Shown: positions 26,369 through 40,347 of the stretch, one piece after another
Position numbering within the stretch: the stretch's first letter is position 1
Layout of the letters: each line of letters begins with the position of its first letter
The notes under the pieces: generated by a model
Databases searched by the model: none
Seen by the model: only the letters and a program-made list of their open reading frames with translations
What the model was told of the DNA's origin: nothing
DNA from: Bradyrhizobium sp. CCGB12
GTDB lineage: Bacteria; Pseudomonadota; Alphaproteobacteria; Rhizobiales; Xanthobacteraceae
Reading direction: 5' to 3'
Length of the DNA: 64,000 nt
Assembly (NCBI RefSeq): GCF_024199845.1
Contig: NZ_JANADO010000002.1
Span: 248,001-312,000, forward strand
Position numbers and translations under genes: made by a program

Positions 26369-26600
26369 TTACCGACGCTGGCCGAAGCGATCAAGCTGTT
26401 TGATAGTCTCCGTCACTTCGAACCAGTCGAGCACGGCGCGGCGTCTGGAACCGATGCCGCGCTCGATGCGCCAGATGATACTCAGTTTGCCCTCTGCTTG
26501 CGTCGGGGTACCATACTTAACAGAATTGGTGGCGAGTTCGTGGATCGCGAGCTCTGGATCAGATCCAACCACAAGGTCATTGGTCTTGATCTGCGATCTA
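26369..26600 (-). pseudogene. Histidine kinase (HWE-type) ATPase fragment
   Basis: The frame carries DPELAIHELATNSVKYGTPT followed by EGKLSIIWRIERG and LDWFEVTE. The H-E-L-x-TN-x-x-KYG box and the following strand are the N-box region of HWE/HisKA_2 sensor kinases common in rhizobia. The phospho-acceptor histidine region upstream and the G boxes downstream are missing or scrambled, and the sequence collides with the end of the decarboxylase gene. Confidence 0.6.
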
Positions 26601-27641
26601 GAGCAGTCCGCGCGCCGGACTTTTCTTTCGCGGCGCGAGAGCTGGCACCTGCGTCGGTGTCTCGCCCGCGATTCGCATCGCGAAATAGGCAATCGTGGCC
26701 CGAAGACCATCCTCCAGCGCCACACGCGGGCGCCATCCCAATAGGCGCGCGGCGGTATCGATCACCGGCTTGCGGCGTTTCGGATCGTCCTTCGGCAGCG
26801 CCTCGAAGCGGAGTGGGGAGGTCGACTCCGTATACGTCAGGACCTCGCGGGCTATTGCCTCAATGGTGACCTCGTGTGGATTGCCGAGGTTGCAGGGACC
26901 GGCCACTGATGGGGGGCTTTCCATCAGCAGCTGAAGGCCCCGCACGAGATCGTCGACGAAGCAGAAACTTCTGGTCTGCGTACCGCCGCCATAGATCGTG
27001 ATCGGCTCGCCACGAAGCGCCTGCACAATGAAATTGGAGACGACACGGCCGTCGTTCTCCAACATGCGCGGGCCATAGGTGTTGAAGATGCGCGCAACCT
27101 TGATTTCGGTTCCGTGGGTACGGTGATAATCGAACATCAGTGTCTCGGCGGCGCGCTTGCCCTCGTCGTAGCAGGCTCGCGGCCCGATCGGATTGACGTT
27201 GCCGAGATAGGATTCCGGCTGTGGATGCACCTCTGGATCGCCGTAGACCTCGCTCGTAGAGGCTTGCAGAATGCGGGCGCCTTGCCGGCGCGCGAGCTCG
27301 AGCAAATTGATGGTGCCGAGCACGCATGTCTTCATCGTGCCGACCGGATCCTTCTGATAATGCCGGGGCGATGCAGGGCATGCCAGGCTGTAGATGCGGT
27401 CGATCTCGTCGTCCAGCTCGATCGCCTCGCGCACGTCGTGCTCGATGAAGCGGAAATTCGGATGGTTCAGAAGAGGCCTGATATTGTCGATGCTGCCCGT
27501 GAACAGATTGTCGAGGCAGATCACCGCGTTGCCGCGTTGCAGGAGAGAATCGCAGAGATGAGAGCCGATGAAGCCGGCGCCGCCGGCGATCAGGACGGTC
27601 GGCGAACGACGGAGCTTGGGGATGCGGGTCTGGAGTGTCAT
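26598..27641 (-). CDS. UDP-glucuronate decarboxylase (UDP-xylose synthase)
   Basis: A 347-residue extended SDR. NAD-binding GGAGFIGSHL at about 20-29, Ser-rich catalytic loop ASTSEVYGDPEVHPQPESY and YDEGKRAAE with Tyr158/Lys162. RIFNTYGPRM, NFIVQALRGEPITIYGGG, QTRSFCFVDDLVRG and CNLGNPHEVTI are typical of bacterial UXS, which converts UDP-glucuronate to UDP-xylose. It is the last gene of the glycan operon, with ATG overlapping the previous stop. A UDP-xylose supply would fit the clan-A glycosidase annotated in the same cluster. Confidence 0.85.
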   Translation of the reverse strand: MTLQTRIPKLRRSPTVLIAGGAGFIGSHLCDSLLQRGNAVICLDNLFTGSIDNIRPLLNHPNFRFIEHDVREAIELDDEIDRIYSLACPASPRHYQKDPVGTMKTCVLGTINLLELARRQGARILQASTSEVYGDPEVHPQPESYLGNVNPIGPRACYDEGKRAAETLMFDYHRTHGTEIKVARIFNTYGPRMLENDGRVVSNFIVQALRGEPITIYGGGTQTRSFCFVDDLVRGLQLLMESPPSVAGPCNLGNPHEVTIEAIAREVLTYTESTSPLRFEALPKDDPKRRKPVIDTAARLLGWRPRVALEDGLRATIAYFAMRIAGETPTQVPALAPRKKSPARGLL

Positions 27642-38654: not shown

Positions 38655-39247
38655 GCCGTCACCCGCTTGTTGATCCCAGTGATTCTGAATCCGTCCCTCT
38701 CCGCGCTGAGGGTGCTGATGCTGGATGGATCGATCTCGATCGAGAGAAAGTCGTCGAGCCGCTTGCGTGCATAATGCAGCAGCGCCGCGCGGATTGGCTC
38801 GGCATGGCTAACGGCGATGACGGTACCTGCAGAATGATCGTTGCGCAGCTGCTTCAGATGGCCGACGACGCGGTGTTGAAGCGCCCGCATGCTCTCGCCT
38901 CGCGGTGGACGGCTGCTGCCGCGTCGCCTATTCCAACGCGACCATTGCGAGTCGTCAACGAGCTCCTCGAAGGACCGGCCGGTCCATTCGCCGTAGTCGA
39001 GCTCGTCGAGGGCCGGAACAATCTCGATCGGCAGTCTGAAATGTGCGGCCAAAATGCAGGCTGATTGCATGCAGCGTCGCTGCGGGCTCGATTGGATCAG
39101 GTCTGGCCGCGGGCTCACGTTGGCTGCACAGTGCGCCATCTGCTCGCAGCCGATGTCATCGAGCGTGACTCCGTTCATCCGGCCGCACAGCGTGCGGCCG
39201 AGCAGGCCGTGGTGACCATGGCGGACAAGATGAATGATCTCGGCCAT
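38651..39247 (-). CDS. Histidine phosphatase family protein
   Basis: A 198-residue phosphoglycerate-mutase-like phosphatase: LVRHGHHGLLGRTLCGRMNG with the RHG catalytic motif (His10), SSPQRRCMQSACILAAHF, the acid in LDELDYGEWTGRSFEELVDD and the second catalytic His in VIAVSHAEPIRAALLHY. Its ATG overlaps the stop of the inositol-phosphate synthase (TGATG). The natural guess is dephosphorylation of inositol-1-phosphate to free myo-inositol or of a downstream phosphorylated intermediate; that is inference from position. Confidence 0.8.
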   Translation of the reverse strand: MAEIIHLVRHGHHGLLGRTLCGRMNGVTLDDIGCEQMAHCAANVSPRPDLIQSSPQRRCMQSACILAAHFRLPIEIVPALDELDYGEWTGRSFEELVDDSQWSRWNRRRGSSRPPRGESMRALQHRVVGHLKQLRNDHSAGTVIAVSHAEPIRAALLHYARKRLDDFLSIEIDPSSISTLSAERDGFRITGINKRVTA

Positions 39248-40347
39248 CAGGTGTACGCCTTGTCGTCGATGAAGGCGCGTGTACGCCGACCAGCCTCCTC
39301 GTCGGTGAATTGCTGCGGTGGCGATTTCATGAAATAGCTGGAAGGGCCGGTCAGGGCCCCCCCGCGTCCGCGATCCATCGCGAGTTTTGCGCAGCGGACC
39401 GAATCGATCACGACGCCCGCCGAGTTCGGAGAGTCCCAGACCTCGAGTTTGACCTCGGCGCTTAGCGGCACGCCGCCGAACGTCGTGCCTTCGAGCCGAA
39501 TGAAGGCGAGCTTGCGATCGGTCAACCAAGGGACATGGTCGCTTGGGCCGACGTGAATGTTATCAGGGTGCATCGGGACGTCGAACTGGCTGGTGACCGC
39601 CTGGGTCTTGGAGATCTTCTTCGAGGTCAATCGCTCACGTTCCAGCATGTTCTTGAAATCGGTATTGCCGCCGACATTGAGCTGGTAGGTGCGGTCCAGT
39701 CGCACGCCGCGGTCGCGAAACAGATTGGCCAGCACGCGGTGCAGGATGGTGGCGCCAACCTGACTCTTGATGTCGTCGCCGATGATTGGAAGTCCTGCAT
39801 CCTCGAAGCGTCGCCGCCAGTCCGGATTGGACGCGATAAAAACAGGAATGCAGTTGACATAGCCACAGCCAGCTTCGATCGCGCGCGCCGCATACCATTC
39901 GCTTGCGCGCTGCGATCCGACGGGCAGGTAGGAGACGAGAACGTCGGTTCGAGACATCGCCAGGACTTCCGAAACGTCGGCTTCGGGGACGTCGGCAATC
40001 GGAACGTCATCTTCGAGATAGCGGCCAATGCCGTCCATGGTCGGGCCGCGTTGGACGATAACGCCGGTCTGATCGACATCGCTAAAGCGCTGCGTGTTGT
40101 TCGGCTTCGCAAAGATGGCATCGGCGACATCTCGCCCGACCTTGCTGACGTTGACGTCGAAAGCCGACGCGATCTGGATGTCGCTGATGTGATACCCGCC
40201 GAGTTCGACGTTCATCAGGCCGGGCACTGGCTCGTTCGAGCTGGCGTTCCGATAGTAGGTGAGCCCCTGAACGAAGGAGCTCGCGCAGTTGCCGACGCCG
40301 ACGATACCGACCCGCACGCGGCGCCTGTCCTGAAGACGGGAATGCAT
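39247..40347 (-). CDS. Inositol-3-phosphate synthase (myo-inositol-1-phosphate synthase)
   Basis: A 366-residue protein of the prokaryotic MIPS type. NAD site RVGIVGVGNCASSFVQGLTY near residue 12, ISDIQIASAFDVN, DVLVSYLPVGSQRASEWYAA, CGYVNCIPVFIASNP, GDDIKSQVGATILHRVLANL with the catalytic lysine region, and LNVGGNTDFKNMLERERL. It isomerises glucose-6-phosphate to inositol-phosphate. As first gene of the minus-strand cluster it commits carbon to the pathway, which makes inositol a probable building block of the product. Confidence 0.9.
   Translation of the reverse strand: MHSRLQDRRRVRVGIVGVGNCASSFVQGLTYYRNASSNEPVPGLMNVELGGYHISDIQIASAFDVNVSKVGRDVADAIFAKPNNTQRFSDVDQTGVIVQRGPTMDGIGRYLEDDVPIADVPEADVSEVLAMSRTDVLVSYLPVGSQRASEWYAARAIEAGCGYVNCIPVFIASNPDWRRRFEDAGLPIIGDDIKSQVGATILHRVLANLFRDRGVRLDRTYQLNVGGNTDFKNMLERERLTSKKISKTQAVTSQFDVPMHPDNIHVGPSDHVPWLTDRKLAFIRLEGTTFGGVPLSAEVKLEVWDSPNSAGVVIDSVRCAKLAMDRGRGGALTGPSSYFMKSPPQQFTDEEAGRRTRAFIDDKAYT

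Follow-up and report, generated by a model that had tools for sequence, protein, structure and literature searches.

We analysed a 64,000-nucleotide window of Bradyrhizobium sp. CCGB12 (positions 248,001 to 312,000 of contig NZ_JANADO010000002.1), in which 13 genes, beginning with inositol-3-phosphate synthase (MIPS) and ending with UDP-xylose synthase (UXS), follow a conserved EcfG-type promoter and probably constitute one operon under control of the general stress response. We assign the cluster, in a 13-gene form, to the named but uncharacterised rhizo-twelve system: both signature families, the TIGR04290 methyltransferase and the TIGR04295 B12-binding radical SAM enzyme, exceed their curated cut-offs, and close homologues of the latter enzyme carry the JGI label "rhizo-twelve system". 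Our favoured, still tentative reading is that the operon makes a soluble, cytosolic, methylated, probably inositol-based oligosaccharide with a protective, compatible-solute-like role. The anatomy and the promoter are well supported, and the product is proposed from the gene families. A preliminary description of the locus, made from the sequence alone, had considered the pathway undescribed, which does not hold given the curated methyltransferase/radical SAM pair and the JGI name; it had also missed the promoter and two genes present in close relatives. New here are the EcfG-type promoter, the permutation of the glycosidase, the 13-gene variant and the separable MIPS module. In open-licence PMC full text, we found no paper on TIGR04290, TIGR04295, Rta_06860 or rhizo-twelve, nor any product, and none on a cluster combining MIPS, CgeB and radical SAM genes.

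The gene cluster and its EcfG-type promoter

The 13 open reading frames (ORFs) run on the minus strand from 40347 to 26598, none with an internal stop. Neighbors overlap by 4 bp at 10 of the 12 junctions and by 1 bp at one, and a 300-bp gap separates the glycosidase from SDR1 (these counts use the chosen starts 39247 for the histidine phosphatase and 28777 for CgeB4, the latter being the 4-bp overlap start). The preliminary description had reported this one-strand, mostly overlapping layout, and the gene families it listed, other than that of the glycosidase (treated below), are borne out by Pfam, NCBIfam and PDB matches (Table 1). The window MIPS misses the TIGR03450 cut-off of 638 bits while aligning nearly full length with 1gr0, the M. 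tuberculosis enzyme. The transferase set comprises four CgeB-like PF13524 proteins and one GT4 enzyme. As had been claimed, no flippase, polymerase (Wzx/Wzy) or ABC exporter was detected among the 13 proteins by Pfam. Membrane segments were likewise absent, with no 19-residue stretch of hydropathy >1.60 in 15 proteins (the 13 of the window plus the nucleotidyltransferase and phosphopentomutase of locus L042), so that all cluster enzymes are predicted to be soluble, which makes a soluble product plausible. Membership in the Wzx/Wzy- or ABC-dependent surface polysaccharide clusters was rejected on the same grounds.

The link to general stress comes from the motif ahead of MIPS. Scanned with the strict pattern GGAAC-N16/17-CGTT, it is found in 48 of the 56 relatives whose DNA ahead of MIPS is readable, at 62–138 bp from the gene (median 76); a looser pattern yields 49 of 56, and the strict figure is the one used. 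By the strict pattern, 48 of 53 MIPS-headed units have a box in front, compared with 1 of 529 internal gene starts and 12 of 75 SDR1-headed units. In three units the gene start falls outside the contig: L124 and L136, which count among the 75 SDR1-headed units as lacking a strict match, and the first unit of L102; the MIPS-headed count is unaffected by them. Where SDR1 heads, or nearly heads, a second unit, a box of its own can be present, at 52–62 bp in L098, L100, L102, L104 and L105 and, in the looser scan, at 61 bp in L103, and these separate boxes are more independent evidence than the MIPS-box counts. The window contains 8 strict matches, against about 4 expected from background, and conservation was tested solely for the one before MIPS. 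The EcfG consensus with N16 is printed in passages of PMC7083833 and PMC3892343, and a looser form, GGAAC-N17-20-GTT, in one of PMC6599016.

The genome that harbors the window encodes three PhyR-type sigma domains scoring over the cut-off, two of them near each other, and in Tistrella (L039) a sigma gene with a PhyR-type domain lies directly upstream of the cluster. Stress genes found near related loci include Ku, LigD, topoisomerase IB, Mn catalase and treZ, of which Ku, treZ and topoisomerase IB appear in a table of EcfG-dependent genes for Sphingomonas melonis in PMC6599016. The Tistrella topoisomerase IB gene (20966-22042 of L039) is located within the cluster itself, between UXS and the methyltransferase.

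Modules, variant form and distribution

A scan of species genomes yielded 356 stretches that encode a relative; the 80 best were retained, mostly from Alphaproteobacteria, with three Acidobacteria assemblies and one cyanobacterial assembly. Gene presence was counted in those 58 of the 80 that have 10 kb of flanking DNA at each end, every one of them retrieved via the radical SAM gene. SDR1, GT4 and CgeB2 were present in all 58, CgeB3 and CgeB4 in 57 each, SDR2 in 56, the glycosidase in 55, the methyltransferase in 50, MIPS and the phosphatase in 48 each, and UXS in 47. The core order defined here from the relatives, SDR1-SDR2-radical SAM-GT4 followed by three CgeB genes, is matched by the window. 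Of the earlier proposal, a single conserved operon for building a methylated glycoconjugate is supported.

Absence of co-occurrence with MIPS, which the preliminary description had named as refuting its inositol-primed pathway, does not hold in the lineage of the window but partly holds outside it. Among loci of the Bradyrhizobium-like type with full flanks, the type to which the window belongs, MIPS is kept in 42 of 42 and the phosphatase in 41, whereas outside this type MIPS is nearby in just 6 of 16 loci. We then searched 18 whole core-bearing genomes for MIPS, 17 without the gene in the fetched stretch and one (L121) with MIPS beside the core, and found a close MIPS (65–72% identity) in 10; MIPS was not found in two plasmid records, which do not cover the chromosomes of those strains. 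TIGR04290 passed its cut-off in 15 of the 18 genomes, was represented in one more by two sub-threshold pieces on two contigs, and was not detected in the other two, and a glycosidase of the cluster's family was present in all 18. In Azospirillum, a MIPS-phosphatase-methyltransferase-glycosidase unit is divergent from the core. Together, this split and the occurrence of MIPS, methyltransferase and glycosidase across the 18 genomes point to two modules, the core (SDR1 to CgeB4) and a separable, putative inositol module that includes MIPS.

Close relatives of the window have 15 genes. Their two additional ones are a nucleotidyltransferase, placed after CgeB1 and before the methyltransferase, and a phosphopentomutase, placed after the glycosidase and before SDR1. 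Across the 58 loci, CgeB1, the nucleotidyltransferase and the phosphopentomutase are all present in 39 and all absent in 16, and the phosphopentomutase alone is missing in 3; the window retains CgeB1 and lacks the other two. The nucleotidyltransferase site is a near-clean deletion, with about 20 bp unaligned. At the phosphopentomutase site, about 150 bp is unaligned (roughly 35750-35900, including the last codons of the glycosidase), and the SDR1-proximal part of the gap aligns. Neither gene was found anywhere in the window's genome, in a search that was positive for each in two control genomes. The divergence of the window from seven chosen close relatives is concentrated nearby: CgeB1 has a mean identity of 73.3% to them, against 90.6% among them, and the methyltransferase 80.7% against 93.1%, while the phosphatase and glycosidase fall about 4 points below the among-relatives identity and the other nine genes at most 2 points. 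A search of 5.8 billion proteins gave one cluster 91% identical to the window CgeB1, the next being at 77%. The 13-gene form is shared by one other genome of the genus, G506, whose CgeB1 is 90%, methyltransferase 89% and GT4 just 69% identical; there, too, the nucleotidyltransferase was not found genome-wide. Because this form is shared, with close CgeB1 and methyltransferase and a distant GT4, we interpret the window as a heritable cassette variant rather than a product of simple decay, the cassette having probably been exchanged by recombination. In most Bradyrhizobium-type relatives, CgeB1, the nucleotidyltransferase and the phosphopentomutase would be an add-on for a further (pentose?) donor; the cassette of the window is a variant in which CgeB1 differs and both donor genes are lacking.

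The system is accessory and patchy, with a CgeB1 match at E <= 1e-120 in 67 of 265 genomes of the window's genus and the TIGR04295 cut-off passed in 13 of 297 genomes of its order, its own genome included. The window is on a 441-kb contig of a genome that also has a 9.0-Mb contig, which makes a plasmid or second replicon the probable location of the cluster. In Bradyrhizobium sp. 195 the system is present twice, on plasmids that were typed as conjugative. The radical SAM gene is present twice in Bradyrhizobium sp. 195 and sp. 164, and genomes G495 and G504 each have two CgeB1 matches; these doubled genes suggest repeated acquisition.

The permuted glycosidase and the flanking genes

No Pfam family matches the window glycosidase at E 0.001, and homologues of this protein are annotated 'beta-xylosidase'. 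It contains NEPNN at residues 9–13 and TEVG at 111–114, NEP and TE motifs that we take to have catalytic roles in a clan-A-type barrel, and strands 1–3 are C-terminal. The earlier assignment as a clan-A glycosidase thus stands insofar as the barrel and both motifs are recognizable; the canonical strand order is not that of the window form, and the assignment finds no counterpart in Pfam.

Of 74 matched ORFs in the collected loci, 65 (the window protein included) are collinear with it, 2 are partial, and 7 are swapped, with the equivalents of window residues about 198–293 coming first, then about 6–190, in a domain fused ahead of SDR2. When the window protein was rotated at residues 185–193, local scores against all 7 fused domains rose from 244–300 to 358–435, shuffled sequences scoring 53 at most. 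In the predicted structure of the window form, the (beta/alpha)8 strands run 4–8 and then 1–3 (pLDDT 85.9), and in that of the fused form from L131 they run 1–8 in order (pLDDT 79.8, from a five-sequence alignment). The best structural match of this normally ordered L131 domain is PslG (E 8.9e-13, TMq 0.71). Foldseek returned for the permuted model partial or generic barrels only, with PslG absent among the matches listed, as expected for a permuted chain, and this absence is no evidence against kinship. Judged from alignments and models, then, the stand-alone glycosidase is a naturally occurring circular permutation of a domain that other genomes keep in the normal order, fused to SDR2.

The two forms differ in their association with MIPS. 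The collinear, stand-alone type occurs in 14 of the 18 genomes, with MIPS in 10 of these 14, compared with none of the 4 that have the fused type alone (one-sided Fisher 0.023, uncorrected for kinship and genome choice); a stop was flagged inside the match in 3 of the 14 collinear rows. At least one genome, that of L118, has both forms. With the forms labelled by locus on the radical SAM tree, four changes are needed, three of them forced by well-supported branches, which argues for a history involving transfer, loss or repeated replacement.

Several genes flank the cluster (Table 1). The small ORF divergent from MIPS gave no Pfam match for three homologues tested. Regulators similar to the adjacent Crp/Fnr-type protein span 9 loci, including L044 and the window. 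Further out, a pair of neighboring ORFs matches a single PQQ-dehydrogenase profile, each in a different part, and this copy looks split. Cytochrome oxidase genes are also found near the system in L044 and L039.

Table 1. Features of the cluster and its surroundings, with positions in the window
Feature	Position	Strand	Evidence or remark
UXS, UDP-xylose synthase (UDP-glucuronate decarboxylase), final gene	26598..27641	-	UXS1 4gll, 373 bits
CgeB4 glycosyltransferase	27638..28777	-	PF13524
CgeB3 glycosyltransferase	28774..29862	-	PF13524
CgeB2 glycosyltransferase	29859..30989	-	PF13524
GT4 glycosyltransferase	30986..32098	-	PF00534, PF13439
B12-binding radical SAM enzyme, TIGR04295	32095..33381	-	705.4 bits, cut-off 400
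SDR2, CDP-tyvelose 2-epimerase-like	33378..34445	-	best PDB match CDP-tyvelose 2-epimerase, 275.8 bits
SDR1, NDP-sugar epimerase (GalE-like)	34442..35554	-	profile matches
300-bp gap, site of relatives' phosphopentomutase and intergenic stretch	35555..35854	-	alignment to relatives
Clan-A-like glycosidase, predicted circular permutant	35855..36793	-	alignments, rotation scores, predicted structures
Methyltransferase, TIGR04290 family	36790..37557	-	375.1 bits, cut-off 300
CgeB1, CgeB-type glycosyltransferase, divergent allele type	37554..38654	-	PF13524
Histidine phosphatase (branch 1)	38651..39247	-	PF00300 E 3.7e-39
MIPS, inositol-3-phosphate synthase, gene 1	39247..40347	-	TIGR03450 519.5 bits; PDB 1gr0 479 bits
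EcfG-type promoter, GGAAC-N17-CGTT	40397..40422	-	-35 box starts 75 bp upstream of MIPS start
95-aa ORF, divergent upstream of MIPS	40677..40964	+	homologues in 49/86 other loci
300-aa ORF, weakly GT9-like	40978..41880	+	homologues in 10/86 other loci
Crp/Fnr-type regulator	41899..42711	-	
Alpha-amylase-family protein	43062..44777	-	
DUF4336 and short-chain dehydrogenase fusion	45269..47170	+	
PQQ-dehydrogenase, two adjacent ORFs	47358..49526	-	
ORF, PQQ-dehydrogenase-like	51431..53344		best match is first half of profile
Cytochrome oxidase genes	54265..59135		

Possible product, alternatives and known systems

In the pathway we propose, MIPS would convert glucose-6-phosphate to inositol phosphate, from which the histidine phosphatase would then free inositol. 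UXS, SDR1 and SDR2 would supply UDP-xylose and epimerised NDP-sugars, and GT4 and the CgeB transferases would assemble a short heteroglycoside on inositol, possibly of four or five sugars, going by the number of transferases. The TIGR04290 methyltransferase and the TIGR04295 radical SAM enzyme would methylate or otherwise modify the sugars, and the permuted PslG-like glycosidase would trim or re-cut the chain. These reactions, as well as the acceptor, the product and its role, are predictions from gene families. No export family recurs widely in the locus flanks, where an ABC ATPase identified by eye as peptide-type occurs in 6 loci. Given soluble enzymes, no widely recurrent exporter and probable stress control, a cytosolic protectant would be the simplest reading. 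Among glycosyl inositols, mycothiol is the bacterial example given in a section of one review (PMC11907402).

Several observations weigh against this interpretation. On the regulatory side, the strict motif is lacking at L093, at every one of the 7 MIPS-bearing loci that are not of the Bradyrhizobium-like type, and ahead of 63 of the 75 SDR1-headed units, and the promoter-bearing loci are related rather than independent, so that kinship among the Bradyrhizobium loci inflates the counts. On the chemical side, 8 of the 18 core-bearing genomes lack a close MIPS (7 with no match and 1 with a weak one); several of these are metagenome assemblies of unstated completeness, and two are isolates, Acuticoccus (L119) and Marinimicrococcus (L131). 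Inositol may therefore not be the acceptor, at least in genomes of this kind, and since MIPS belongs to a separable second module, inositol priming, proposed in the preliminary description, would not be universal; in the Bradyrhizobium type, MIPS and the phosphatase are retained. At L100, L103, L105 and L114, SDR1 and the radical SAM gene have no SDR2 between them, the 2-epimerase-like protein seeming dispensable there, and the PDB matches of the radical SAM enzyme are all weak, the best being AprD4 at 31.7 bits. Finally, the product may be an exported glycan that housekeeping flippases complete.

The main rival develops this last point: the operon would make part of a surface or cyst-type polysaccharide, either a methylated repeat or a methylated side chain, which housekeeping machinery with genes elsewhere would export. 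We consider this unlikely. In its favor, the L131 glycosidase domain best matches PslG, which is encoded in the Psl exopolysaccharide cluster as described in PMC11912335. Moreover, the TIGR04290 model is named meth_Rta_06860, Rta_ being the tag of Ramlibacter tataouinensis (given in PMC3164672), whose cyst exopolysaccharide is ribose-containing and O-methylated according to a passage of PMC9658432; that study used myo-inositol as internal standard in gas chromatography, and any sample inositol could thus have escaped notice. The phosphopentomutase and nucleotidyltransferase of relatives could supply NDP-ribose. Conversely, the 13 proteins include no membrane protein, initiating lipid-phosphate transferase, flippase or polymerase, and the flanks hold no widely recurrent exporter.

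It is improbable that the transferases instead glycosylate a protein acceptor, as CgeB of Bacillus spores does. The four CgeB-like soluble transferases are compatible with such a role, and the small divergent ORF next to MIPS, with its many homologues in other loci, is imaginable as the acceptor, but it lies kilobases from the core in L039 and L040 and looks like a general stress-island gene, and the MIPS chemistry would be left unexplained. We judge similarly improbable a secreted cyclitol-glycoside natural product built by aminoglycoside-like logic without amines. MIPS, the phosphatase, glycosyltransferases, epimerases, methyltransferase and a radical SAM enzyme with a weak AprD4 match (31.7 bits) would suit it, but the 13 proteins include no aminotransferase, resistance gene or exporter, and occurrence in many free-living Alphaproteobacteria, together with the EcfG promoter, better fits a physiological role. 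That the window copy is a decaying remnant left by the loss of two donor genes is very improbable, for although both are gone from the locus and were not found in the genome, and the relatives are graded from the full trio (39 loci) through CgeB1 with the nucleotidyltransferase alone (3) to none (16), all 13 ORFs and the promoter are intact and G506 has the same form, with matching CgeB1 and methyltransferase and likewise without the nucleotidyltransferase. Bradyrhizose O-antigen synthesis was also considered and dropped, the homologues reaching Acidobacteria and a cyanobacterial assembly and the cluster having no flippase or polymerase.

To return to the cytosolic oligosaccharide, a broader proposal is possible, if on balance doubtful: that the system represents a new alphaproteobacterial class of stress-induced, cytosolic, methylated and radical-SAM-modified oligosaccharides built on newly made inositol, in which swappable donor cassettes would generate strain chemotypes and a chain-editing glycosidase would come in two rotated forms, epimerase-fused and permuted. 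In any case, for a named pathway apparently without a published product, EcfG is now a candidate regulator and two modules and one strain variant have been defined, and a comparison of EcfG-induced metabolites could reveal its product. The glycosidase, for its part, offers an apparent natural circular permutation with both arrangements within one biosynthetic system.

Among known systems, the window cluster is closest to rhizo-twelve itself, by its signature families and the labels of its homologues, and departs from it in lacking the nucleotidyltransferase and phosphopentomutase and in its divergent CgeB1/methyltransferase cassette. The mycothiol pathway comprises Ino1, MshA, a phosphatase and MshB-D. 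The cluster shares with it an Ino1-type MIPS, a phosphatase and a GT4 enzyme, but this GT4 reaches 28.6 bits against the MshA cut-off of 462.5 and no MshB, MshC or MshD family is found among the 13 proteins, and mycothiol was dropped as a candidate. PslG, presumably a GH39 endoglycosidase of the Psl cluster, resembles the normally ordered L131 domain and likewise belongs to a glycan-building cluster, whereas the domain in the present system is epimerase-fused or circularly permuted and the window form has no membrane segment. The mycobacterial polysaccharides MGLP and MMP are methylated and cytosolic, and, in a comparison of general features rather than of families, the idea of a soluble methylated cytoplasmic glycan is common to both; the enzymes are different, and the putative inositol and radical SAM steps belong to the window cluster.

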